A program made the position numbers and the translations under genes. The notes below the pieces were generated by a model. That model saw only the letters and a program-made list of their open reading frames with translations, made no database searches and was not told where the DNA came from. This document shows, piece after piece, positions 28 through 42,695 of a stretch of 42,695 nt of DNA; the stretch's first letter is position 1; every line of letters begins with the position of its first letter. The stretch is from a virus. The DNA lies in the IMG/VR virus record IMGVR_UViG_3300035663_000027, positions 1 to 42,695 of that record. One strand, given 5' to 3'.

Positions 28-321
28 TCAATCGTAGCGCCAATCTAGCACGTTGGCAACCGCCAAGTACTTTGATCGTGCGCCACGCTCAACCAGAGCA
101 AAGTAGCGTGGTGGAATGCGCTTGCCGTGGCGGGACCGTTGAACGTACAACCATCCCTCCTCCTCAAGGCGGGCCAACACTGACTTCGTTCCCCAGCTGT
201 GGTGACTCTTGAGCGTAGCAGCGTTGATTTCAAATAGGCGTGAGCCCGGATGCTTGCGGATGTAGCCTAGCAGAGCCTGATCGGCCAGCTTAAGCGAAGC
301 CCGCGACAGAATGCGGATCAT
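28..321 (-). CDS. Winged-helix-like DNA-binding protein, first early gene
   Basis: This 97-aa protein starts at an ATG at 321 and ends in TGA at 28. Residues about 14-75 read like a winged helix: a helical N-terminus (ALLGYIRKHPG), a helix-turn-helix with a second helix (SWGTKSVLARLEEEGWL), then a basic wing (YVQRSRHGKRIPPRYF). The LEEEGWL-Y-R pattern is typical of MarR/PadR/GntR-like or replication-type winged helices. It is the first gene after the 542-bp leader, which holds two palindromes around a sigma70-like promoter, so it may be an early regulator binding its own leader. No strong Shine-Dalgarno is visible. Fold assignment is by pattern only and the regulatory role is inferred. Confidence 0.6.
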   Translation of the reverse strand: MIRILSRASLKLADQALLGYIRKHPGSRLFEINAATLKSHHSWGTKSVLARLEEEGWLYVQRSRHGKRIPPRYFALVERGARSKYLAVANVLDWRYD

Positions 322-2557: not shown

Positions 2558-4306
2558 TTAAATCCAGGTATAGACAGCGTTTTCAGCAGAACCCATGTCT
2601 TCAAAGTTTCGACCCATTACCAGTCGATCGGTGGCTTCCTGTGGGTGGTCGATGAAGGCAGTTAGCATCTGATTCCACTCGGTTCGCTTTTGTTCAATCT
2701 GTGCTTCCTTTGCTGAAATGGCAAGGATGTCTTGAAAGTATTTTACACCAAGGGCAAGGGCGTCAACCCTATCGTCGTGCTTTACGGCGCCTTTTTCCCG
2801 ACACATCCTTGTCAGCTGGTACATTAGCATCCGTGGAAGGCGTTCCTCGGGGGCCATGTCACCGTTAGATGTATAATCCCAGCTAATAAGACGTTGGTCA
2901 ATGATAAGTCGGTGTTGATTAAGAACCGGTTCAAGGGTGTCGATAATTCGATCTTCCTTTCTTGTCGTAGCCCTAACTTCTTCAAACGATAGACCAACCT
3001 TCATCTCCATGGCGTGCTTTTTCATCAGCTCCATGATGGCACCATCACCGAAGTTACTTTCGATGAGGCAGGTGGTAGCCTTGTACTTCTTTGCTCGTGT
3101 AAGGATTTCTCTCAGGGTGGTGTCGGAGTACCCGTCTTGGTTGGCAAAGATGTCCCTTACAAAGAGGTACCCGTTAATTTGAGACAGAATGATAGCAACC
3201 GTTTCGTCTTTACCACGACCAGAAGGGTCAACGGCAACGATTGTTTCCCCCCAATGGGTAAATTCCGCAGTATTTTTTGGCCTATGCCACCGGTCCCCAG
3301 GCAACGCAACAGCGGGTAGATCAAGAAGAGTCTCCTTGTCAGCACCCCACACAAGATCGCTTGGGCCTTTTTCCATATCCAAAGGCAACACGGAAAAGTC
3401 GGATAGCTTTAATGGAAACTTTAACGCATCACTTAAACTTGTGTCGAGCATGAACTGAAGCATAAAGTTGCTTCGGCTCATACTTTGCTCACGCTCAAGC
3501 AGGTTGATCTCAGAGAAGCGTGTGTCGGTAGGTGTCCACCGTACTGTGTCGTGTCCCTTCTGTTCAATGTCTGCTACGAGCTGCGGGGCAAGGACATCTT
3601 CGTAGCCCGTCAGGCTTTGAGGGTAGCGAGCAGGCCACACAAACGGACGGTAGTTCCGTTCTCTCAACGTGCGGTAAATGGTAAACGTTGTTTGCGGCGT
3701 TCCTAAAAACACGATGCGGGAATCTGTTTTTGGTGTAAGGACGGACTCACCTTCCGTAACCAGCTGCAACAGCTTCTCTCGCATCAGGTCTGTGGCGGAG
3801 TTAGCGGGCACCTCCACGTCATCAAACACGATCAGATCCGCACGGCTACCAGTAATCTGACCGGTAATACCTACGGACTTGACGGAGGGGCTTTGTGCTG
3901 GTTTACATCCGGCAACATCAAAGGAAACCCGTGACCACCGTTGCTCGTCGTCCACAGGGCGAAGATGAGCCAACCAATCAAACTCAAGAATACATTTCTG
4001 AGTAAAGATAGTAAAGTCATCAGCCCTTTGCTTAGACGCAGATATAACAAGGATCTTCTTATCACGGTCGTTCCATAGCGTCCACAGAACGAAGGCAGCA
4101 GCGATCCACGATTTACCGAGTCCTCGAAAGGCTTGGATTTGAAGTCGTTTTGGTCCATTCTGGAGGTACTGAGCAATGGCAAGTTGTGCTCGTGTTGGAG
4201 AAGGCAGGTCTAGCGATTTCCAAACAAGAGACAAGAATAACGGAAACGAATCACCAAGTCGCTGTTCTATGGGCGTAGAAGGTGCTTGTTTTGTGGTTCT
4301 GGGCAT
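2558..4306 (-). CDS. terL: Terminase large subunit (T7 gp19-like)
   Basis: This 582-aa ATPase/nuclease pumps DNA into the procapsid through the portal and cuts concatemers. The N-terminal ATPase shows a Walker A at about residues 60-67 (FRGLGKSW) and a Walker B (LIVFDDVEVP). The C-terminal RNase H-like nuclease shows its acidic residues in VAVDPSGRG, CLIESNFGDG and DDRVDALAL. Length matches T7 gp19 (586 aa). The ATG at 4306 has only a weak AGG upstream. Its partner small subunit is the 77-aa gene at 7079-7312, separated from it by small basic virion-type genes and the HNH gene. Confidence 0.95.
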   Translation of the reverse strand: MPRTTKQAPSTPIEQRLGDSFPLFLSLVWKSLDLPSPTRAQLAIAQYLQNGPKRLQIQAFRGLGKSWIAAAFVLWTLWNDRDKKILVISASKQRADDFTIFTQKCILEFDWLAHLRPVDDEQRWSRVSFDVAGCKPAQSPSVKSVGITGQITGSRADLIVFDDVEVPANSATDLMREKLLQLVTEGESVLTPKTDSRIVFLGTPQTTFTIYRTLRERNYRPFVWPARYPQSLTGYEDVLAPQLVADIEQKGHDTVRWTPTDTRFSEINLLEREQSMSRSNFMLQFMLDTSLSDALKFPLKLSDFSVLPLDMEKGPSDLVWGADKETLLDLPAVALPGDRWHRPKNTAEFTHWGETIVAVDPSGRGKDETVAIILSQINGYLFVRDIFANQDGYSDTTLREILTRAKKYKATTCLIESNFGDGAIMELMKKHAMEMKVGLSFEEVRATTRKEDRIIDTLEPVLNQHRLIIDQRLISWDYTSNGDMAPEERLPRMLMYQLTRMCREKGAVKHDDRVDALALGVKYFQDILAISAKEAQIEQKRTEWNQMLTAFIDHPQEATDRLVMGRNFEDMGSAENAVYTWI

Positions 4307-11533: not shown

Positions 11534-14500
11534 TTACTGTTGACCGTAATTGATCAGTTCATTGTAGATCCTGGTGTTTTCCGCTTCGTCAGTCGGACTT
11601 AGTTGTTCAGCGGTAAGCGGTTTGGAAAGATCGTATTGACCGCGTTGGATTTGATATTTAGCTTTTCTGATGCCTTGCTCAGCCAGACCCACCTCTTCCA
11701 CATTGGCTTCCATCTGTTGGAAAGCAAGCTTTCTCTTTTGTTGCCAAATGTCATCAATAGCAGCATAGAAGCGAGGCCATTGTGCTCGATCAGTACCAAT
11801 ATCACCTCTGTTACGGTTTTGCCAATTTTTAAAATCTTCCTTAAACCAGGACTGCTTACGAAGGCTATCCAGTTCCTGACGAAGGCCGTTCTTAGCCATG
11901 GCATTGCGAATGAAATACTTCTGCTCTGCTGTCATAGCCCGCCCAGAGGGGGACTTTTCCAGACTATCAGACCAGTTGTATTCAGCAGCCATCAGCATCT
12001 TGGCTACAGGATCTTTGTTGTCTGGGTTCACTTCAAAAGGAACCAATGCGTTCCAGGGGCCAAAAGCACTCCAACCATTAGGATTGCGAAGAGGTTCGCC
12101 CGTTAAAACGTTAATCATTGGTGGTTGAAGGTTGCGATAACCAGGCAGCGCAGATTGCATCGCCCGATCAAGCTCACTGTTAAATTCCCTCATGTAAGGG
12201 TCAAAGGCATTAGCAGCAGCTCGACGAGCGCCAGACAAAGGCAGCATGTTGTTGGTCGTAGATAGCAAGCCTTTAAGAACCGTGTTGCCTTTGATCAATT
12301 CACCTGGGTCTGCCAAAACAGCAATGGCTTCCAGACCAGCAAAGTAGCTCTTTTCGGTAAGACCCGCAGCAATAGCAAGAGCCATCTGTCCGGTAAGAGT
12401 TTCTAGCCAATCTTCATTTAAACCCATCCGACCAAGCATGGCAATATCAGCCATACCAGCAAGAACATTGTTCAGAGGCTCCAAGGCGTTGTACGAAACC
12501 CACTGACCACCAATGTTGATGGAACGGGGTTGAATACCAAGGGCTTTCCAACGAGCACGTTCGCGGGCGTCCACAGGCATGTTACCGGTGGTCAATCCAG
12601 CAGCACCAAGCATCAAACCAATGCCAGCACTAATGGCTCCAATAGCTTCCCTGCCCTCGTATTCAGCCACCCGTAGAGCGTCACCAGACTGCTTGACAGC
12701 CAGATACTCACCGGCATACTTACCAACAAGAGGGGTAAACTGTGCCTGGTAGCGAATAATGTTTGCAGGGGTACGAAGGAACGGAACCGCAACACGACCA
12801 AGAGGGCCAAGAGGGCCAAGGTTTTCCAGGAATTGACTAAGACCATTAACAGCCTTGCCGGGGTCTTCTTGGAAGGTACCAATCTCAGCATACTGTGCAA
12901 GTCCTTTTGCTTTGATGCGGCCTGTTTGTGGGTCAATGGATTTGGAGTATTCAGCTATGTATTTCTGAGCCAGTTTATCCACATCAAGAGGATTCTTGGC
13001 TTCAGTCATGGCTTGATACATCGACTGCTCAGCAATCCGTTGACGGGCCAGGATGGTACGGAAAGCATCATCAGTGCTCATCAGCAAACGAGTTGGAAAG
13101 TCCAACCACTGAACCAATCGGTAGTGGGCCTTCAGGAACCCAACTGCCTTTTCCTCCGTAGGAGTAGCAGCAATCTTTTCAAGCGTCTGAAGCATGGCTT
13201 CAGTTTCAGCCCGTTCAATCACCTGACGCGGAGTCCAGGTAGCAGCGGTACCACTTTTGAATGTAGTAACACCAACCTTAAACGCTTCCGCCGAGCTGGT
13301 CCAAATGGCGTGGAGGCCGGCCACAGCAGCACGAGTCAGTGCCGGATCACCCTTGCGGGCACCCATAATGGCGATGCTAACAGGGGCTTCGATGAGGCGC
13401 ACAGACGCACTGAAGTTACGAATGATGGTTTTGGTGCCAGACAGAATGCTGTTATAGAACATTCCCATCTGGTTTTCGCCAAACACCTTCATGGCCGTAC
13501 CAGCAAAGGTAACGGTCTTAGCGGGGTCACCACCAGCAAGAACCATAGCACGGACCATTGCCCGCATTTCATCCTCAGCCTTAGGATCACCCATGCGCTT
13601 CAGGTTCTTAACCTTATCTGCCCACTTCCGTAGGTCACGATTGGTCAGAACATCTTCACCTTCAAATTCACGCAGTGCTTGAGCAGCCTCACCGCCATCC
13701 ATAGCGGCGCTGATCTTCACCTTAAGGGCGTTCAGACTGCCACCATAGAAGTTGGTACCAAACTTATACACCTCAAGCATACCAACCAGACGGTCAATAA
13801 GACGGTCAAAGTTGTTGGCTCCAGTGATTTGATTGGTATCCAAATCCTCGGCAACACGAGCAATGTCGTAGATCTGAGCAGCAAGGTCAGAGATGATTGC
13901 CTTAGCAGCAACAAGACCCTCAGCAGATGGGATGTCGGTGCCTTCAAGCGTACCGCCAGCAGTACGAAGCACGGACCCAGCCACATCGGTTGGATCTTGC
14001 ATTACCTCATCAACAGTCTTAAATGCATCGTTGAAATCTTGATAAACACGAGCTGCGTTACCAACAACTTCATCAACAGTCTTGCCAACTGCTCTGGAGA
14101 TCTTGCGAACATCCACCTTTTTGCTGGCATTCTTGATAACCTTTTCAACACCCTCATCAAGATTCATGATCTTAAGTTGGGCATCGGTCATCACCTTACC
14201 AGCAGAACCGTGAGACACAACACGACCAGGTTGGAATCCAAGATCCTTTTCCGTGCCCTTGAAACCAGTCTCTAGTTGATCTTGCTTTTTAACAACATCA
14301 TTGATGTCAGCAACTCGGTGTGCGGCTTGTGTTTCCCAGAATTCATAGGGAACATCATCAGCCCCCTCGAAGATGGTATTTTCAAGGTCAGCCTGAGCAA
14401 GGCGCACCTGATCCAGTTCTTCGGTCAGAGTCTTAGCAAGGTCATCTTCTGGATCCAGAGCATTGATGCGTTCTTGGAGAGTTTGTTCCCGTGCCATGAG

Positions 14501-15562
14501 TTGGTTCATTTCCAGCTCTTGAGCATCGGTCCACCGAACACGTTCGGCTTCCTGGGACACAGCATCAGCTTTGGCCAGTTCTTCAGACTTGTCTGCCGTG
14601 GCCTTTACGCCAGCAGCAACAGCCTCTTCCTTGCTACCACCATTGTCAATGACTGCTTTAGCTGCCTTTTTGCCAAAAGCAAAAGCAACCACAGCATTAC
14701 CAACAGCATTTAGGGGACCACCTTCAGCAACCGACTTGATGCGGTTGATCCAAGGGTTATCCTCTTCCTTGGCAGCCAGGGCAAACACAAAGTTATCTTG
14801 CCATTCTTCAGGCACCCACGATTGGATCATGGAGCTGAAATTACCATCACGAGGATCGGTAAGGAAGAAGTCTGCGATGGCACCAGGAACAAGGCCTTCG
14901 GTGACAAGACGCTTTGCTTGTGCTGCAACTTTAGCACCACCTTTCAATCCAGCAGGAATGGCAGTGGTACCAGCTTTTACCCCAGGCAGGGGAAGACGAG
15001 CTGCTTGACGGGTAGCAACAATAAAGCTAAGAATTTTAGCGGACGCTTTACCAACCTCAGTCTTAGGAGTAACCCCAAAATCATAGGCTGCTTTAAGATA
15101 TGTATCCGGTTCGCGGTTACGATTAACAGTCAGATCAAGAACAGGCTGGGTAGCCACGTTAAGGACACCCTCTGCCACGCTAGACACGCCCTTGAGAAGA
15201 ACGTTCTTGGCTTCCGTAGCAGCTCCAGCAGCAGCTGCAAAAGGGCTACCTTTATCACGTTGTGCTTGAACCTTACGACCACGTTCCAGGGTCTGTTCAA
15301 TGTCAGTGCCGAGATAGGCATCAGCAGTACGAGCAATCGAACCAGCCGGATCTGCTATGAAGGTAGCAAGAGGGGCAGCTGGATTCACATACTGAGCGTT
15401 GAGCTTGGCTTGCCTTTCGGCTTCCCGCTTTTTTGCTTCCTGATCAGCCTTAGCCTTGGCAGCTTTTTGTTGAGCTTGGCGCTGAGTTTCCTCGCGTTTT
15501 CTGGTTTGAGTAAAATCTTCAGGAGCCAGACCTGTGGCCCGTCCGGGTACAATTTCAGCCAT
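11534..15562 (-). CDS. Internal virion protein, gp16-like in position and size
   Basis: This 1342-aa protein has the size of T7 gp16 (1318 aa) and the same place before the tail fibre. It is mostly alpha-helical with Ala/Lys/Glu-rich coiled segments at the N-terminus (about residues 20-55). A Gly/Ala-rich hydrophobic stretch lies near residue 1000 (GAISAGIGLMLGAAGLTTG). No lytic transglycosylase motif is seen here; the cell-wall domains are in the 1050-aa neighbour. It probably is ejected with DNA and forms the trans-envelope channel. The assignment rests on gene order, length and composition. Confidence 0.8.
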   Translation of the reverse strand: MAEIVPGRATGLAPEDFTQTRKREETQRQAQQKAAKAKADQEAKKREAERQAKLNAQYVNPAAPLATFIADPAGSIARTADAYLGTDIEQTLERGRKVQAQRDKGSPFAAAAGAATEAKNVLLKGVSSVAEGVLNVATQPVLDLTVNRNREPDTYLKAAYDFGVTPKTEVGKASAKILSFIVATRQAARLPLPGVKAGTTAIPAGLKGGAKVAAQAKRLVTEGLVPGAIADFFLTDPRDGNFSSMIQSWVPEEWQDNFVFALAAKEEDNPWINRIKSVAEGGPLNAVGNAVVAFAFGKKAAKAVIDNGGSKEEAVAAGVKATADKSEELAKADAVSQEAERVRWTDAQELEMNQLMAREQTLQERINALDPEDDLAKTLTEELDQVRLAQADLENTIFEGADDVPYEFWETQAAHRVADINDVVKKQDQLETGFKGTEKDLGFQPGRVVSHGSAGKVMTDAQLKIMNLDEGVEKVIKNASKKVDVRKISRAVGKTVDEVVGNAARVYQDFNDAFKTVDEVMQDPTDVAGSVLRTAGGTLEGTDIPSAEGLVAAKAIISDLAAQIYDIARVAEDLDTNQITGANNFDRLIDRLVGMLEVYKFGTNFYGGSLNALKVKISAAMDGGEAAQALREFEGEDVLTNRDLRKWADKVKNLKRMGDPKAEDEMRAMVRAMVLAGGDPAKTVTFAGTAMKVFGENQMGMFYNSILSGTKTIIRNFSASVRLIEAPVSIAIMGARKGDPALTRAAVAGLHAIWTSSAEAFKVGVTTFKSGTAATWTPRQVIERAETEAMLQTLEKIAATPTEEKAVGFLKAHYRLVQWLDFPTRLLMSTDDAFRTILARQRIAEQSMYQAMTEAKNPLDVDKLAQKYIAEYSKSIDPQTGRIKAKGLAQYAEIGTFQEDPGKAVNGLSQFLENLGPLGPLGRVAVPFLRTPANIIRYQAQFTPLVGKYAGEYLAVKQSGDALRVAEYEGREAIGAISAGIGLMLGAAGLTTGNMPVDARERARWKALGIQPRSINIGGQWVSYNALEPLNNVLAGMADIAMLGRMGLNEDWLETLTGQMALAIAAGLTEKSYFAGLEAIAVLADPGELIKGNTVLKGLLSTTNNMLPLSGARRAAANAFDPYMREFNSELDRAMQSALPGYRNLQPPMINVLTGEPLRNPNGWSAFGPWNALVPFEVNPDNKDPVAKMLMAAEYNWSDSLEKSPSGRAMTAEQKYFIRNAMAKNGLRQELDSLRKQSWFKEDFKNWQNRNRGDIGTDRAQWPRFYAAIDDIWQQKRKLAFQQMEANVEEVGLAEQGIRKAKYQIQRGQYDLSKPLTAEQLSPTDEAENTRIYNELINYGQQ

Positions 15563-27710: not shown

Positions 27711-27914
27711 TTAAAGATCTCGCTTTGATTTAAGATAGCGAATGATTGAAATAGCCCCAGCACGATAGGCTAGGTCTCGTTCGGTGATGGTGTGATCAGG
27801 ATACACATCAGGATACATATCCTCAAGCTCCTGAATCAAGCGGTCTAGATCAACGTTGCCCCCAACCACGCGAGTCAGGGGCAAGGTCTCTTCTTCTAGA
27901 AATGGACTACCCAT
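27711..27914 (-). CDS. 67-aa hypothetical protein
   Basis: This small acidic protein (ATG at 27914) reads VVGGNVDLDRLIQELEDMYP, then DVYPDHTITERDLAYRAGAI and ends IIRYLKSKRDL. It looks like a compact all-helical domain. The ATG overlaps the nrdB end by eight bases, and the next gene starts three bases after its stop, so it links the metabolic and structural regions in one message. I recall similar genes in this position in cyanophages, without a known role. Confidence 0.65.
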   Translation of the reverse strand: MGSPFLEEETLPLTRVVGGNVDLDRLIQELEDMYPDVYPDHTITERDLAYRAGAISIIRYLKSKRDL

Positions 27915-28638
27915 ATTGTGGAAGGTCGGTGTTCGCAGCCTCGAAGAACGCAGGCATTCTGGATCGTTGCGTGTCCTTCAGGCCAGGTGCCTTGCCCCGC
28001 TCATAAAGCGAGTCGGACTGGTTCAGCCAGAAGTCTTTGTCCAGGTACTTGTTCTCAGACGAACCAAGGGCATCCATCACCCATCCCACAGTCGCTCGGC
28101 GTAGGCGATTGAGGCTCGGTGTGGACTTGAGGCCCAACTCAGAGCAGACCATTGAGTGGACAGCGACGTGGGTCTGTTCGTCCCTTGAGATGTCGGCTGC
28201 CGTGGTTCTGATTCCGATGTCTCCGTTAAACCGGAAGAACGGGAGGATGACAAAGAAGACACTGCGTTCGAGGATGGCGGCTTTAAGCAATGGATGTTCG
28301 GGGGCATCCAACCATGCTTTAAGGATGTGCTTGGCTTCGGCTTCGGCTTTGCCATTGATGCCATGAGCAGCAACAACATAGTTCAAAGCCTGATCGTGAC
28401 GCTCTTCATCCTGTTGGTTTGAGAGTAATGCCTCCCGTACACCAGGTGTTTTTGGGAGTTCTTTCTCCAACCCTTGCTGAAGAAATTCACGAACAGGCAG
28501 TTCAAGATGGCGAAGACCAAGCGCACGATAAATGGATTCTTCGGAACCATCAACAAGTTTCCCTTGCTGTACGGCTACCGGAGTCCACTTACGCTTGCGG
28601 CTAATTACTTGATCATAGGGCGAAAGGGTCGAGTTCAT
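27907..28638 (-). CDS. nrdB: Ribonucleotide reductase small (beta) subunit, compact
   Basis: I choose the ATG at 28638, which shares ATGA with the nrdA stop (243 aa). The metal-site pattern of class I beta subunits is visible: E-x-x-H in EERH (about residues 78-81 in this numbering), E in LERSVFF and a second E-x-x-H in DEQTH. The position four residues after the first His, Tyr122 in E. coli NrdB, is Leu here (HDQAL). So a standard tyrosyl radical is unlikely. It is about 100 residues shorter than E. coli NrdB. Work on cyanophage P-SSP7 reassigned its RNR as class I with a small beta subunit of this kind. It needs NrdA for activity. Confidence 0.85.
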   Translation of the reverse strand: MNSTLSPYDQVISRKRKWTPVAVQQGKLVDGSEESIYRALGLRHLELPVREFLQQGLEKELPKTPGVREALLSNQQDEERHDQALNYVVAAHGINGKAEAEAKHILKAWLDAPEHPLLKAAILERSVFFVILPFFRFNGDIGIRTTAADISRDEQTHVAVHSMVCSELGLKSTPSLNRLRRATVGWVMDALGSSENKYLDKDFWLNQSDSLYERGKAPGLKDTQRSRMPAFFEAANTDLPQYG

Positions 28639-30074
28639 TCTCCGCAAGGAATACAGGGTTCGTTTTCTGGTTTAACTATGGGACAGCCGCAATCAGGATC
28701 TACATCCTCTTCAAACCCAAACAAATGCTTGAAGTCATCATCAAGCGCAGCAAGGGCATCATCTTTTGCCTGGGTGTCAGGCATCACTTGAAGAGAATAG
28801 TAGAGAGAGGTTTGAGGTGAGTTGAACCATTCAGTCAAGAAAGCCCTGTCGTAGGTGACGACATCGCTCCAGCTGTTGAATGAATAGCCATGGAACAACA
28901 GTGTGCTTTGGAACAGACGAACGATGCCGTCTGCGACTGCCTTATAATCTTTCCACCCAACATCAGAAGCTATTTCGATGTTCGGCGGGTAGTCATAAGA
29001 CTGGACTCCAAATGTCCCACTATCACGGTCGACATGACGAGAGATAGGAGGGGCCAACTCGGGGGCAGTAGTATACCCGTTGAGATCAATGTTGTTATAA
29101 GAACAGGAAGCCGTAGGCGCAATAGCAAAGGCTCGGTCCATGTTGGCGGATCGAGCAATTTGAGCTGCGATTTCGATGGCTTTAGAAAGCTCAGATACAA
29201 GCAGATAGGCCGGAGTATGCTCCGGTTGATGAGAATGGAACTTGGTTAGGGCGTCTCCAAACTCTTTATAAGTCACACCGTTCTGGCACAAGAAGTTAGC
29301 CAGACCAAGAATACCAAGGCCAACCTGACGGTCAGTCTCGGGGGCAAGGTATTCCCCGGTATCACCCACGCCAGTCTTAGCGTGAAGAGCCACCAGGCTA
29401 CTCATTCCTTCAGTAAACGCAGAAACCAGTTCCGAAATAGAACAAGCTCCGAGATTGATATGCTGAAGAAGGCAGGTACCGCGACTAGGAAGATACACCT
29501 CCAGACATACGTTACCGTAGATGCGATTGCCTTCAGCGTCATAACGAATCTTGTTGAGCCAGATGTCACCCTTCTTGATTCCATCAAGCGTAGCTTCAAT
29601 CAGTTCGGGTGATGCATCCCTAAGGAAGTTTCCATCCACGTTAAGACAACGCTTAACCCAAGCAAGATCAGAACGGGAAGCTTGAATAAACTCAAGGGCA
29701 TCGGGGCAAGTATAATCGAGGTGACACACCACAGCCCCATTTTTGTATACCCCACCGCGCCTCAGGGTTTCGTTGAGGGCAGAGTAGATCCTGGCAAAAG
29801 ATACGGGGCCAGACGCTGTAAGTCCCTTTCCGTTTTCTGAGCCACGAGGACGGAGTTTACTAAGATGAACAGCAACGCCAGCTCCATTACGAAGAGCGTG
29901 CGAAACAAAGCGCCAGGACGCTTCAATACCTTCAGGACCCTCCATTGTGTCTTCAACGACGAAGACCGTACAACTGACGGGGAGGCGAGATTCGGGGTTA
30001 TCAATCCAGTTTTGGACACGACCTGTACGGGCAATAGTGTTGGGGGTGTCGCCAAAATCAGCGTAAGCGGTCAT
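28635..30074 (-). CDS. nrdA: Ribonucleotide reductase large (alpha) subunit, class I type
   Basis: This 479-aa protein reduces ribonucleotides to deoxyribonucleotides. Key sites: Cys35 (LPVSC), the active-site N188-V-C190-L-E192, the second redox Cys at 201 or 211 (TCLLQHINLGAC), the IAPTASCS loop at 318-325, and a radical-transfer Tyr pair Y425-Y426 (SLYYSLQV). The C-terminus has a Cys pair (CIPCGE) for thioredoxin-type re-reduction. The Tyr pair indicates class I rather than the cobalamin class II often annotated for such phage genes. No ATP-cone is present and the length is well below E. coli NrdA (761 aa), so allosteric control is likely reduced. It is coupled to nrdB (ATGA). Confidence 0.9.
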   Translation of the reverse strand: MTAYADFGDTPNTIARTGRVQNWIDNPESRLPVSCTVFVVEDTMEGPEGIEASWRFVSHALRNGAGVAVHLSKLRPRGSENGKGLTASGPVSFARIYSALNETLRRGGVYKNGAVVCHLDYTCPDALEFIQASRSDLAWVKRCLNVDGNFLRDASPELIEATLDGIKKGDIWLNKIRYDAEGNRIYGNVCLEVYLPSRGTCLLQHINLGACSISELVSAFTEGMSSLVALHAKTGVGDTGEYLAPETDRQVGLGILGLANFLCQNGVTYKEFGDALTKFHSHQPEHTPAYLLVSELSKAIEIAAQIARSANMDRAFAIAPTASCSYNNIDLNGYTTAPELAPPISRHVDRDSGTFGVQSYDYPPNIEIASDVGWKDYKAVADGIVRLFQSTLLFHGYSFNSWSDVVTYDRAFLTEWFNSPQTSLYYSLQVMPDTQAKDDALAALDDDFKHLFGFEEDVDPDCGCPIVKPENEPCIPCGE

Positions 30075-36444: not shown

Positions 36445-36688
36445 TAGACTCCTCAGTCAGAAGGTCATAAACGTTGTCGTAGGCCTCAAGACAATCCACC
36501 GCATCACCACCTTGAAGGGCAGCGTTGAGGTAGGCGTATTGAGCACACTCTTCGACCAGGTAGTCAAAGAACTCAATGTCCAGATCAAAGGCCTCGACTT
36601 CGAGCAGATACTCGTCGTAAAGGTTTTCAAGAACAGACTCTCGCAAGCAGAAGTGCTCAGAGAGTGCGGCGTAGTCCGGTGCAGACAT
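36434..36688 (-). CDS. 84-aa super-acidic protein behind RNA polymerase
   Basis: The ATG at 36688 shares one base with the RNA polymerase stop (TGATG). The 84 residues hold 22 Asp/Glu, one Arg and no Lys, for example DEYLLEVEAFDLDIEFFDYL and ECAQYAYLNAALQGGDAVDC. Regular spacing of acidic and aromatic residues suggests a folded protein. In T7 the small proteins acting on host RNA polymerase and restriction enzymes (gp2, Ocr) are also small, and Ocr is very acidic. No sequence homology is evident. The coupling to the RNA polymerase gene suggests a role in the transcription switch or host defence block. Confidence 0.7.
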   Translation of the reverse strand: MSAPDYAALSEHFCLRESVLENLYDEYLLEVEAFDLDIEFFDYLVEECAQYAYLNAALQGGDAVDCLEAYDNVYDLLTEESNDG

Positions 36689-39024
36689 CAGCAGAAGAAG
36701 TAAGAGGATTCCTGAACATCGTTAATGTCCAAGGTGTTGATCATGACAGACTCATCAAACTCTACGCCCAGTTGCTCTGACCAGTTACGGAGAACAGGCT
36801 GTGAATAGATCTCGACAAACTTGTCACGGATAGCTGCGGCCAATTCATCCATGTCAGATGATCGACCCAGCACGCAGTCGTGGATAACGGTAAATGGTTT
36901 CTGCCATTCAGCAAAGACCAGGTGTAACAATGCGGCATCAAGGCTGTGGACAAAGTTAGGACTAGCAGCAGTCTTGGCTTTGTTTAGATCAATCGCTCGA
37001 TCTTCCCAAGGCTTCAACATCTGTGTGTCGATTCGTTGTCCCAGTAGCTTGGTCCTGATCCTTTCGACCTCTGTCCTTCGGTATTCCTGGTAGACAATGA
37101 AACCAGACGGGGTGACCCATCGAAGGTAGGGCTGACCACGTTTGACACATTCTCCAGCAACACTTTGGATGAAGGCCATAGAGGCACAGGGACCAGCAAA
37201 GACCTTCCTTACCGCATAGCGATAGACAGCTTTGACGATTGCTTGGAGTTCGCCTCTCTCCAGTTCGACACCTTTGAGTTCCTGACGGATGTAATCACGA
37301 GCACTGTTTTCGGTGACCCCATACGGTGTGGTCATCACAGTCCTCTTGGTTAACTTCCGTGTAATCAGGTGATGGAGGTGTTCGGGTAACTGTTCTTTGG
37401 CGACCTCTGCCACAATCGCATAGCCATCAGAAGGCTTCGGAGTCGGTACCACATTGACCATCTCAGCCGCTGTCCTGTCCAAAGCCATAGCAGAGAGATG
37501 CTGTAGGCCAGAGCAGGTGGCATCGACCGATACCGGTAGACCACTGGTTTGTTTTTCACCAGTAATCACGCAGAGATAGTACTCAATCGCTGCTGCTATG
37601 AAACACCAAGGTTCCTCAGCAGATGACCACTCAGAGATAGTTCCCTCAGGATCAGTAGCGACACGAGTCAAGAATTCATGGTTAGACAATACCCATTGCT
37701 GTCGCTCTTCCATCGGGGCTTTATCAAGACCCCAAGTCGTAGCAACCTGAAAGGCTAACCACCATTCCGACACATCAGCTTCCTCGTGGAAATAGATCAG
37801 ACTCTTGTCGAAGTCTGTTCCCTGGGGGCTGAGGCTTGTGGGAATTGGGTAGACCCTTCCACGGAAATCGAATGACCATGGCGTCCAGAAGACTTCACCC
37901 TTGTATTTGTTTGCCACATACAGAGCCTCTGTGGTTCTGTAGTTCTTCTGCGCCAGAGCAGAGTTCCTATCCTCAATCTCAGTACGAGCTTTGCGATAAG
38001 CAAGCTTGTCCTCATCAGAGGCGGTCTCCCATGGTTCTGGCTTTGGCGGAGGAGGTGTTGGTTCCTCGGCGCGGAACTTACCCACACTGATGCGGTGTTC
38101 CTGGCAGAAGTTGGCCAGTTCAAGGATCCGGTCGTTGATCCGATACGGGACCTTCTGGAGCCGGTTCAGCATGGCGAGTGCCGTGCTTCCCCGTAATAAT
38201 GCGTCCCTTCTCGAAACCCTAGTCCTGACAAGGCGAGTCAGCTTCCGAAGGTCGTTGGTCAAATAGCCTCCCGCAAAGTCATCAGACCAGTCGTTCGGCT
38301 CACACAACATGGGCCATAGACAGCCCGCAAAAGCCTCTGCCTGGGCCAGCAGGGCCTCTCTCGCCTTGATGAACTCCGGTTGGTACACCAGGTAGGTAAT
38401 GCGGCTGTTAGAGGACGTTGCAGACAGGCGTGTAGTCACCCATCCTGTGGCCGTAGCCAGCCGATCCAATAGCCATCCACCAACCAGGTGCCTAACGCTG
38501 GTACCCCAAGACAAGATCTCCACCTCGTTGCGCCTCATCACCGCTCGATACCGCTGGACCTTGTACCCATACCCTTTGTGGGCATGGATGTGGGCCTCTG
38601 CCTTATCAAACAGCTCGGGTTGTTCAGCAGCAAACCTATCAAGCATGATCTGGTGATACACCAAACTGCCGATGTGTGTTGTTGCCGCAGCGTAGGTCAG
38701 GCTCTCAATCCTCCGTACACCAAGGATGTCAAGGACGCCCTTTGCCGTAATGAGGGCAAGCACGCCTGGATCACAGTCCTTGATTGGAGCAACAGCCTGG
38801 GCCTTGTCGCTGGCCCACCCCTGAGACACACGATTGATCTTGTCAGCAATCTCCTTGGTAATCTTATTCAGCCCTTGATTGATAAACGCTGAACCATAAA
38901 CCGTAGCACTTGCATACATCCTATCCTCAGCGGTACGAGTACGTTCCCTGAGACGAGTAATGGCTTCAGTGCGTGCTTCGGTTTCTCGCTGAAACTGACG
39001 GGCGAGTTGTTCCGGTGTTGCCAT
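36688..39024 (-). CDS. Single-subunit DNA-dependent RNA polymerase (T7 gp1-like)
   Basis: This 778-aa enzyme transcribes middle and late phage genes. Catalytic residues are visible: D501 (DATCSGLQHL; T7 D537), K560 (KRTVMTTPYG; T7 K631), Y568 (T7 Y639) and H715-D716 (VIHDCV; T7 D812). The specificity loop reads GFIVYQEYRRTEVERIR; T7 N748 aligns with R657 while T7 R746 aligns with R655, so promoter choice should differ from T7 and T3. It is about 105 residues shorter than T7 gp1, mainly in the N-terminal half. Start and stop codons overlap the neighbours by one base each. A copy of the 20-nt repeat lies inside this gene. Confidence 0.95.
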   Translation of the reverse strand: MATPEQLARQFQRETEARTEAITRLRERTRTAEDRMYASATVYGSAFINQGLNKITKEIADKINRVSQGWASDKAQAVAPIKDCDPGVLALITAKGVLDILGVRRIESLTYAAATTHIGSLVYHQIMLDRFAAEQPELFDKAEAHIHAHKGYGYKVQRYRAVMRRNEVEILSWGTSVRHLVGGWLLDRLATATGWVTTRLSATSSNSRITYLVYQPEFIKAREALLAQAEAFAGCLWPMLCEPNDWSDDFAGGYLTNDLRKLTRLVRTRVSRRDALLRGSTALAMLNRLQKVPYRINDRILELANFCQEHRISVGKFRAEEPTPPPPKPEPWETASDEDKLAYRKARTEIEDRNSALAQKNYRTTEALYVANKYKGEVFWTPWSFDFRGRVYPIPTSLSPQGTDFDKSLIYFHEEADVSEWWLAFQVATTWGLDKAPMEERQQWVLSNHEFLTRVATDPEGTISEWSSAEEPWCFIAAAIEYYLCVITGEKQTSGLPVSVDATCSGLQHLSAMALDRTAAEMVNVVPTPKPSDGYAIVAEVAKEQLPEHLHHLITRKLTKRTVMTTPYGVTENSARDYIRQELKGVELERGELQAIVKAVYRYAVRKVFAGPCASMAFIQSVAGECVKRGQPYLRWVTPSGFIVYQEYRRTEVERIRTKLLGQRIDTQMLKPWEDRAIDLNKAKTAASPNFVHSLDAALLHLVFAEWQKPFTVIHDCVLGRSSDMDELAAAIRDKFVEIYSQPVLRNWSEQLGVEFDESVMINTLDINDVQESSYFFC
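38193..38212 (-). promoter_or_regulatory. Candidate phage promoter, copy 2, inside RNA polymerase gene
   Basis: The exact 20-mer GAGAAGGGACGCATTATTAC is read on the minus strand within the coding part for residues about 271-278 of the RNA polymerase. It is followed by GGGG, as T7-type start sites often are. If used, this promoter would transcribe the 3' two-thirds of the polymerase gene and the replication genes behind it. The other copy is at 2538-2557. Conservation at the nucleotide level within a coding region is what makes it stand out. Confidence 0.4.
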
Positions 39025-40151: not shown

Positions 40152-40362
40152 ACTCACCTCCCTTTTTGGTAAGACTTAAACAGTACTCAAGATGTGCCTG
40201 TTGAATGCGATGCTTAATCTCCGCAACCTCAGGCCTATTGGTAAGGGCTGCTGCTCGAAAGATCTCAACAACAAAGACGCGCTCAGCATAGGTAAGACTT
40301 TCAGACCCATGCCTGGCAATCTTCATGATAACCTCAATTGGAGTAATCATTTGGTCATTCAT
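40144..40362 (-). CDS. 72-aa hypothetical early protein
   Basis: This 72-aa protein reads MITPIEVIMKIARHGSESLT, YAERVFVVEIFRAAALTNRP and ends with a Lys/Gly-rich SLTKKGGEYD. It is helical with no Cys pair motif. Its ATG (40362) shares ATGA with the preceding 104-aa gene, and its last codons contain the ribosome site of the next gene. It is one of a tight series of small early genes. Function is unknown. Confidence 0.65.
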   Translation of the reverse strand: MNDQMITPIEVIMKIARHGSESLTYAERVFVVEIFRAAALTNRPEVAEIKHRIQQAHLEYCLSLTKKGGEYD

Positions 40363-40673
40363 ACAAGTAGAGCATCGGATCGGAAGGAGTTAATCAACAC
40401 AGCATCCTGTGAAAACGACTGCTTATAAAGATTAGCAATCGCCCTTACTTCAAGTGCTGCCTCGTAGCTCTCAGCAATGATAGTAAGAATGAACACATCC
40501 TCTGGTTCACCCTTCCAGCAGCTGGTACCCTCAGTCACCGTCCAACTATCAAAGTACCGATTGACAGTAGTGGTAATGAAGTCAGCAAAGTCATCCCCCG
40601 ACACAGTAGACAAAGCTTCGGGCCGCTGTGGAATGTTGCGACCCATGAACAGCTGGTAGGTAGTGTGCATCAT
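40359..40673 (-). CDS. 104-aa protein, DUF3574-like pattern
   Basis: This 104-aa protein has TVNRYFDSWTVTEGTSCWKG followed by EDVFILTIIAESYEAALEVR and IANLYKQSFSQDAVLINSF. The order "F..wTvteg.G.W+ge.E....itii......... i..lY+..F.QdaVl" resembles DUF3574, a small alpha/beta family of unknown function in bacteria, including cyanobacteria. If so, it may have been taken from a host. The first Met is at 40673, with a second directly after. It is coupled by ATGA to the 72-aa gene. Confidence 0.6.
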   Translation of the reverse strand: MMHTTYQLFMGRNIPQRPEALSTVSGDDFADFITTTVNRYFDSWTVTEGTSCWKGEPEDVFILTIIAESYEAALEVRAIANLYKQSFSQDAVLINSFRSDALLV

Positions 40674-41346: not shown

Positions 41347-41378
41347 AAAAAAAGGTGGGGACCATGGGCAGCCCCCCC
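41347..41378 (-). terminator. Intrinsic terminator of the first early operon
   Basis: On the minus strand a seven-G run (41378 to 41372) pairs with CCCCACC (41360 to 41354; one mismatch) across an 11-base loop, followed directly by seven T (41353 to 41347). It starts 11 bases after the stop codon of the 159-aa gene. The G+C-rich stem and U-tract form a classical rho-independent terminator for the host polymerase. It separates the first early operon from the array leading to RNA polymerase. Confidence 0.8.
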
Positions 41379-41388
41379 TAAGATGTGT

Positions 41389-41868
41389 TCAAATGCGGCA
41401 CAGTTTCTGCGGTTGAAACTCGCCAGTCTCAAGACAGGCAGCAGCCTGGCCCGCAACCTCACTCCAGAGAATCCAGTGGATCTCCTTAGGAGCAGTCAAG
41501 GTGTGGGCAATGGTCACGGCAAGCTCACCCTCCCAGTCAGCACCAGCATTCTCGCGCCAATGTGCAAAGTCGTGAACCGCACGGAACATAAGATTCTGTT
41601 GCGTCGACATAAGATCAGGGTTCGGATCGTTATTCAAGCGAGACACTGGCAGCCAACGGGTCTCACCGGGAAGAACGGGTCGGCTCAGCGCGGCCATAGC
41701 CTCTTCAATGGGAACCTCACGGGTCACAAACAGGGGCTCAATGCCTGATGCTCGCATCCTATGGAATTCCCGCATCAACCACAGGCCGAACGCTTTACGC
41801 TCATTGTGGGTAGGTTTGGTGTGAGGCGCTGCCAACCATTGGCTGGCGATGTTAGATTGCGTGATCAT
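41389..41868 (-). CDS. 159-aa early protein with HDxxH motif
   Basis: I use the ATG at 41868 (159 aa). The C-terminal half has MFRAVHDFAHWRENAGADWE, GELAVTIAHTLTA and LWSEVAGQAAACLETGEFQP. The His/Asp/Glu series (HDxxH, then EGE, H and SEVAGQ) suggests a metal-binding site, and similar "HDxxGH...GE...H...SExxGQ" proteins are found in actinobacteriophages, where their function is unknown. The N-terminal half is helical (FGLWLMREFHRMRASGIEPL). It is the last gene of the first early operon, just before the terminator. A hydrolase activity is speculation. Confidence 0.65.
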   Translation of the reverse strand: MITQSNIASQWLAAPHTKPTHNERKAFGLWLMREFHRMRASGIEPLFVTREVPIEEAMAALSRPVLPGETRWLPVSRLNNDPNPDLMSTQQNLMFRAVHDFAHWRENAGADWEGELAVTIAHTLTAPKEIHWILWSEVAGQAAACLETGEFQPQKLCRI

Positions 41869-42040
41869 AGTCAACGTCCTCAACGGATAGGATGTGTTCG
41901 CCACGGTCACAGAAACCGTAAGCCTGATTGAAAGCACGGTCGGATGTGCTGGCGTGGATGATGTGTTGGCCATTAATCTGCCAACCCCCACGGCCCCGCC
42001 GTACCCCTACGGTCACGAGCCACCGTTTCTCAGTCAACAT
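41852..42040 (-). CDS. 62-aa hypothetical early protein
   Basis: This 62-aa protein reads MLTEKRWLVTVGVRRGRGGW, QINGQHIIHASTSDRAFNQA and YGFCDRGEHILSVEDVDYDH. The first half is basic and beta-like, the end acidic. It overlaps the preceding 211-aa gene by 11 bases and the following 159-aa gene by 17. It belongs to the first early operon. No family recognised. Confidence 0.6.
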   Translation of the reverse strand: MLTEKRWLVTVGVRRGRGGWQINGQHIIHASTSDRAFNQAYGFCDRGEHILSVEDVDYDHAI

Positions 42041-42665
42041 AGCCCAGAAGCCTCCGATAGGTTACCCAAGTTACAGCCTGAACCTCAGCAGCAGTCAGAA
42101 TGTGGCCGCATGTTTCAAACGACCGCTCAGCAGCCAGCACATAGGATCGGGTGATGGCAGCATAGAGCGCAGGGCTGAGGCTAGGTGTCTTGGTGGTGGG
42201 GATGCGCTCACCCATAAAAATGGCGAACGCGTGGCCGTCGACACAAACAGTATCCTTGAATCCTGAGATGCACCGATAGAATGCAACGACCTTCTGACCC
42301 GATAGAATCTCCTGAATAGCCTCACCGTCTGGTGATTCCATCTCAAGAATACGGGCCGCCTTGTCTTTATTCGGATTAAAGGTGCAAACCTTAGCAATCC
42401 GAGGGTCGTGCCCCTGATGCCATAGCTTGATCATGGTTTCAGCATCGGCAACGTTACGGCCCCATTTATTGTTCGGGCTAAGGGCCGCTATGACACCGAT
42501 TGCCTGGCCCAGTGTGAGCCCCTGATAGGCGTGCATCAGCTGAACCGCTAGATCATAGGCGCGGCGATACCAGTGCTTGCCCTGTTCTATGTCAGCAGCG
42601 GACGCTAGCCCGAGCATCCCGATAATGTGACGAGCGTTCGCCCGTGGTGTGACCCGTCTAGACAT
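42030..42665 (-). CDS. DNA-glycosylase-like early protein (DUF7178-like)
   Basis: This 211-aa protein starts at an ATG (42665) with GGAG six bases before it. It has WYRRAYDLAVQLMHAYQG, GVIAALSPNNKWGRNVADAE and SGQKVVAFYRCISG followed by VCVDGHAFAIFMGE. The last blocks resemble the G-x-K ... VDxHA pattern of HhH-GPD DNA glycosylases (K and D in the active site), and "WY..A...A......GviAALSPxxxWxxN" is the signature of a family that I recall from actinobacteriophages (DUF7178). It may act on modified bases in host or phage DNA. It is the second gene after the operator-bearing leader. Activity is not established. Confidence 0.65.
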   Translation of the reverse strand: MSRRVTPRANARHIIGMLGLASAADIEQGKHWYRRAYDLAVQLMHAYQGLTLGQAIGVIAALSPNNKWGRNVADAETMIKLWHQGHDPRIAKVCTFNPNKDKAARILEMESPDGEAIQEILSGQKVVAFYRCISGFKDTVCVDGHAFAIFMGERIPTTKTPSLSPALYAAITRSYVLAAERSFETCGHILTAAEVQAVTWVTYRRLLGYVD

Positions 42666-42695
42666 TGTGTTCTCCGTGGTGTGGGTGTGTGGCTT

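Follow-up and report, generated by a model that had tools for sequence, protein, structure and literature searches.

A promoter- and terminator-bounded gene block of a T7-like virus encodes a probable HhH-GPD DNA glycosylase and its frequent HD-family partner

Four minus-strand genes of the 42,695-nucleotide window (the whole stretch of virus DNA analysed here, positions 1–42,695 of IMG/VR record IMGVR_UViG_3300035663_000027) form a separate block between two conserved promoters and a real terminator, and we think it somewhat probable that this block supplies a previously undescribed entry-phase DNA-processing pair, a glycosylase/AP lyase and an HD partner, whose target would be abnormal bases on incoming DNA. 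Below, gly denotes the 211-aa protein (DUF7178), HD denotes the 159-aa family with the HDxxH motif, and L-numbers denote related loci.

The first 23 bases of the window are the same as its last 23 bases, and this direct overlap means that the contig is circular and that the four-gene block spans the join. All of the genes of interest are on the minus strand, where the order is terminase (2558–4306), ThyX (1293–1943, upstream of the early block), a 110-aa ORF (864–1196, between ThyX and the leader), a non-coding leader, and then the genes for the 97-, 211-, 62- and 159-aa proteins. On the same strand the 159-aa gene is followed 3′ by the terminator, a region of small genes and the RNA polymerase gene (36688–39024, minus strand; phrog_414, 2e-207), so the polymerase gene does lie downstream of the block terminator, as a sequence-only reading of this DNA had stated. 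The closest counterparts of the window enzyme come from podoviruses of Synechococcus and Prochlorococcus, at ~45% identity, which indicates a T7-like virus whose host is probably a cyanobacterium. Other genes of this phage encode endonuclease I, an exonuclease-like protein, ribonucleotide reductase (RNR; 27907–30074, minus strand) and the ThyX mentioned above. A 104-aa early protein (40359–40673, minus strand) matches DUF3574 (3.2e-9) and, weakly, an S-adenosylmethionine lyase family (E = 0.011), and judged from these matches its gene is possibly a second early gene of anti-restriction type.

The packing of the four genes, which had been proposed from the window sequence, was confirmed: all four ORFs are present as one block on the minus strand, with reading frames that overlap where gly stops and the 62-aa ORF starts and again where the 62-aa ORF ends and HD starts, and the gene content and order (winged helix, gly, 62-aa, HD) are repeated in related contigs. 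The first gene of the block encodes a 97-aa winged-helix protein (28–321, minus strand; MarR_2, E = 0.0011, which is below the Pfam cut-off), whose homologues in the relatives are 70–99% identical and likewise precede gly at this position. The 62-aa protein encoded between gly and HD (41852–42040, minus strand) has relatives that are 31–98% identical and lie directly after gly. Such relatives are also found directly 3′ of gly at loci where HD is absent (L016, L042, L013 and L072), and within the clade of the window phage the 62-aa protein may be a more constant partner of gly than HD is.

The leader carries two sigma-70-like promoters on the minus strand, a distal one (TTGACG-18-CATGAT, 462–491) at about −170 from the winged-helix start and a proximal one (TTGCCA-18-TACCAT, 350–379) at about −58, the −35 element of the latter being TTGACA in the relatives. 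Both positions are matched in 6 of 6 comparable leaders (the window included) while the surrounding sequence has diverged, and such −35/−10 matches are expected by chance 0.34 times per 700 nt. Upstream of the distal promoter are two palindrome-like 17-bp elements, GATAAG-N5-CTTATC (524–540) and GATAAG-N5-CTTATG (502–518), which are partly conserved in L016 and L042–L044 and replaced in L010 and L017; judged by sequence, the winged-helix protein or a host regulator might use them as operators.

At its other end the block is closed by an intrinsic terminator (41348–41376, minus strand) that consists of a hairpin (41376–41357) and a run of seven T. It had been called strong; considered in isolation the window terminator is of modest energy (−15.8 kcal/mol, z −1.2), but it is real and conserved in position, since a hairpin plus T tract lies no more than 130 nt from the HD stop in 17 of the 22 relatives that share this gene order. 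The corresponding control values were 1.8% for shuffled sequences and 0 of 74 for sites inside the operon, and the comparison of the relatives with the shuffled sequences rules out a terminator that arose by chance. The conserved promoters and terminator together bear out the proposal of a separate operon. The further proposal, of expression alone and ahead of the other genes, is put in doubt by the comparison with relatives, 8 of 13 of which have an extra sigma-70-like promoter 160–200 nt past the HD stop, where the window has none; the RNA polymerase block may therefore be transcribed by the host enzyme simultaneously. The relatives with this post-terminator promoter are L006, L010, L011, L025, L026, L040, L075 and L080, and it is absent from the window and its nearest kin.

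Gly, the 211-aa HhH-GPD DNA glycosylase/AP lyase-like protein (42030–42665, minus strand), matches DUF7178 (3.9e-41) and phrog_3842 (9.6e-52), neither of which has an assigned function in its library, and a few database records name its relatives “glycosylase” or “N-glycosylase/DNA lyase”. Structure prediction supported the glycosylase-like character first noticed in the sequence: the AlphaFold2 model of gly (pLDDT 95.7, pTM 0.90) was compared with the PDB by Foldseek, and every one of the best 14 matches is an HhH-GPD glycosylase, with 8-oxoG glycosylases accounting for 13 of them. The top matches are MjOgg (3knt, prob 1.00, TM 0.52), SsOgg (3fhg, TM 0.54) and TmOgg (3n0u, TM 0.54), and the match probability with Ogg2 enzymes is 0.99–1.00. 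Over these 14 matches the TM-scores are 0.36–0.54 and the lowest Foldseek E value is 0.0085 (none is below 0.001), and TM-scores of about 0.5 with E values of at least 0.0085 mark gly as a distant glycosylase relative; a search by sequence profile found no relative of gly in the PDB.

Nine gly residues, K125, D143, W32, Y33, W68, N71, H145, Q196 and W200, are invariant in 60 of 60 diverse sequences, and the spacing from K125 to D143 is 18 in the window protein and 17–21 across the family. In an hhalign comparison K125 falls on the Lys and D143 on the Asp of E. coli EndoIII (GRKTA...AVDTH), a match that is weak when taken alone (Prob 2.5%), and on this alignment K125 is the predicted equivalent of the lyase Lys, and D143 that of the catalytic Asp, of HhH-GPD enzymes. 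The gly hairpin is shorter than that of EndoIII, and only GxK is left of the LPGVG-type motif (G123 is present in 53 of 60 sequences). The fold and the conserved residues place gly in the HhH-GPD superfamily as a probable bifunctional glycosylase. Assignment of gly to Ogg2 itself was rejected: Ogg2 enzymes recognise 8-oxoG through a C-terminal Lys, and this Lys is missing from the window protein, which ends in GYVD.

The sequence distance between this family and known glycosylases would also suit an HhH-GPD scaffold that has been turned to base transfer or DNA binding and not to excision, for example in a step of DNA hypermodification, and glycosylase-related enzymes that modify phage bases do exist; nonetheless, both catalytic residues of the bifunctional glycosylases are invariant here and no gene for hypermodification turned up among the scanned proteins of the window, and we regard reuse of the scaffold as very improbable. 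Many relatives of gly are in cyanophages and other aquatic phages, and they are also common in actinobacteriophages. The position of gly upstream of the RNA polymerase gene in the cyanopodoviruses S-CBP2 and 9515-10a speaks for an early placement. Neither gly nor HD matched the known anti-phage defence proteins of PADLOC or the named proteins of NCBIfam.

The 159-aa HD protein (41389–41868, minus strand) matches phrog_3170 (1.8e-7), and none of the Pfam models passed. Its predicted structure (pLDDT 95.3) has no confident solved-structure match in the PDB (the best is a weak one to selecase, prob 0.44, TM 0.29), and among the BFVD viral models it has 17 matches at E ≤ 0.001. These are stand-alone podophage proteins (LKA1, shl2 and AS12) and domains of proteins of ~600–1500 aa, a few of the large ones being named ART-PolyVal-like, NAT or phage head morphogenesis. 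Residues N92, F95, R96, H99, D100, G114, E115, E137 and Q141 are invariant in 42 of 42 sequences, and as a set they look like an enzyme active site that could bind metal. The His spacing varies from HDxxH in the window protein to HDxxxH in members of polyvalent type, so a classical zinc motif is unsupported. An HExxH zinc metallopeptidase (zincin) was considered and rejected, since the motif and spacing do not fit and there is no confident PDB fold match, and the original suggestion of a metal hydrolase gains no clear support from either the spacing or the fold. HD-family proteins were also seen in regions of early type in two cultured phages where no DUF7178 was detected, which again fits an early placement: ORF7 of Pseudomonas phage LKA1 (L228, 3662–4228), which is in the early region before the first annotated terminator, and a protein of Bacillus phage P59 (L235, 3869–4447) encoded inside the annotated terminal repeat region.

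Are the two families linked beyond this virus? Their co-occurrence in other phages had been suggested as a check, and the result was positive. A search with the HD family only (no gly query) returned 47 viral loci, 41 of which have DUF7178 close by; two of the remaining 6 end at a contig edge and four are without DUF7178, which gives 41 of 45 informative loci. Many of the 47 HD loci are near kin and the raw count overstates their independence, which is better judged from the arrangements (gene order, fusions and tree). Both gly/HD gene orders are found, and on the DUF7178 tree the label “paired” or “unpaired” has to change 10 times, with well-supported branches forcing at least 5 of these changes. 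Gly and HD are also neighbours in Mycobacterium phage Grungle (gp93/94) and Gordonia phage Skog (gp165/166). Linkage confined to close relatives is ruled out by the switch in order, the fusions (below) and the tree.

The partnership is frequent, not obligatory. No HD neighbour is detectable at 94 of 222 DUF7178 loci (some of which are redundant), so the glycosylase does not always depend on an HD partner. HD loci without gly are L140, L141, L142, L151 and L225–L227, and a scan of genome contigs for HD gave five loci, two of them gly fusions and three without gly. In Mycobacterium phage Sheen (L031, 3153–3626) and Microbacterium phage Cece (L035, 2676–3137) an SprT-like protein is encoded 1–2 kb from the DUF7178 gene, and no HD was seen near the DUF7178 gene of either phage. 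SprT-like proteases act on DNA–protein crosslinks, and AP lyases can create such crosslinks.

Gly and HD are joined in a single protein in five cases, L138, L145, L223, L224 and gp205 of Rhodococcus phage E3, the domain order being reversed in L224. E3 gp205 is labelled “structural protein” in its record, and a search of open papers for evidence that it is in the particle found none. The fused proteins of L138 and L145 continue into the internal virion protein family phrog_6651. The window has an internal virion protein of this family (1342 aa, 11534–15562, minus strand; phrog_6651, 1.6e-136) that matches those of L138 and L145 in BLASTP at 9e-19 and 2e-21 (25–30% identity over 290 aa). In the window, HD and gly profiles match the operon genes only, and the internal virion protein is without the fused pair. 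T7-like phages eject internal proteins of the phrog_6651 kind into the cell, and going by this family name the fusion proteins are probably injected with the DNA.

These arrangements bear on whether gly might be an ordinary base-excision repair enzyme (for 8-oxoG or a similar lesion) that is loosely linked to its neighbour, with part of the linkage being hitch-hiking in mosaic early regions. Its closest folds are indeed 8-oxoG glycosylases, many of its relatives come from cyanophages and aquatic phages that are exposed to light, and many gly loci are without HD. However, the five fusions and the two gene orders are hard to reconcile with hitch-hiking, the family is also common in actinobacteriophages, and it is not obvious why a repair enzyme would have to come first or travel in the particle; we consider ordinary repair improbable.

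A dedicated entry-phase pair, the reading that we prefer, draws its evidence (fold, catalytic residues, linkage, fusions, promoters and terminator) from comparative genomics and modelling, and from these we infer catalytic activity, target, HD role, timing and injection. Gly would flip out one kind of base, cut its glycosidic bond and nick the strand by means of the AP-lyase Lys. HD would work with gly, and its likeliest role would be that of an enzyme whose active site consists of H-D-E-E-Q and whose substrate is either the gly product or the same lesion. In the window phage both proteins would be made at once by the host RNA polymerase from the two promoters, with the terminator behind them, and in other phages the same two domains would be joined to a protein that is expected to accompany the DNA into the cell. 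Either route, host-type promoters or the particle, would place the module in the cell at the start of infection. The likeliest target on the incoming phage DNA would be an abnormal base, one that had been damaged or that a host defence had installed.

Immediate-early or virion delivery would also suit a weapon of host takeover, in which gly would remove a normal or host-specific base from the chromosome of the host, HD would assist in breaking that DNA and the pieces would supply the nucleotide pools of the phage; the phage does have genes for nucleotide recycling (endonuclease I, an exonuclease-like protein, RNR and ThyX). On the other hand, endonuclease I is already available against host DNA, and the block has no base-modification gene that would shield the phage DNA from cutting at normal bases. 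An abnormal-base target is favoured for the latter reason, and we prefer removal of abnormal bases from incoming DNA to attack on the host chromosome, which seems to us rather unlikely. A more specific form of the preferred reading is counter-defence by excision, in which the glycosylase/lyase and HD would strip base adducts placed by host immunity from the incoming DNA and the module would alternate between an immediately transcribed form and a virion-carried one joined to the internal ejection protein; we hold this version, too, to be tentative and on the unlikely side.

DUF7178 and phrog_3170 are widespread phage families without assigned function; they recur together as a single unit, and gly now has a concrete and testable predicted chemistry. 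Should the two proteins target incoming DNA or defence marks, phages as well as bacteria would be using base excision as a weapon. The fusions suggest that phages swap “transcribe it first” for “bring it along”, and the timing of action would then be a selected trait.

The pair was said to be undescribed when it was first noticed, and no description of it was found in the open-access literature; among the 5.39 million open papers covered, not one names DUF7178. The main text of Iyer et al. 2017 (PMC5512222) has no mention of glycosylases, and the polyvalent-protein literature examined has none of an HhH-GPD glycosylase. How does the pair compare with known systems? Gly shares with the Ogg2-type 8-oxoG glycosylases (MjOgg, SsOgg and TmOgg) and with endonuclease III the all-helical HhH-GPD fold, the places of the Lys and Asp, and a similar size; it differs from them in that its sequence shows no detectable relationship with any solved member, its hairpin before the Lys is shortened, and it is linked to a phage HD family. 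In polyvalent phage proteins (PMC5512222), which combine at least two disparate domains in one polypeptide encoded among virion genes, the likeness is that HD and gly, too, occur as domains of very large virion-associated proteins, with the earliest phase of infection as a shared theme. The window pair, by contrast, consists of small stand-alone early proteins from separate genes and does not form such a polypeptide, whereas L138 and L145 do have the domain fusion. Brig1 is a bacterial antiviral DNA glycosylase that makes AP sites in the conflict between phage and host; it is monofunctional, has been likened to the uracil-DNA-glycosylase superfamily and is a host weapon against phage (PMC11078745), while gly is phage-encoded and has an HhH-GPD fold and a putative lyase Lys. 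The T4 internal proteins Ip1–Ip3 are small phage proteins that are in the cell at entry and counter defence as inhibitors of GmrSD nucleases (PMC12373910); their entry-phase placement is like that proposed here, and no relation of theirs to a glycosylase is known. Proteins that act at entry are thus a known theme, and what appears to be new is a glycosylase-based pair that exists in both early-transcribed and virion-linked forms.
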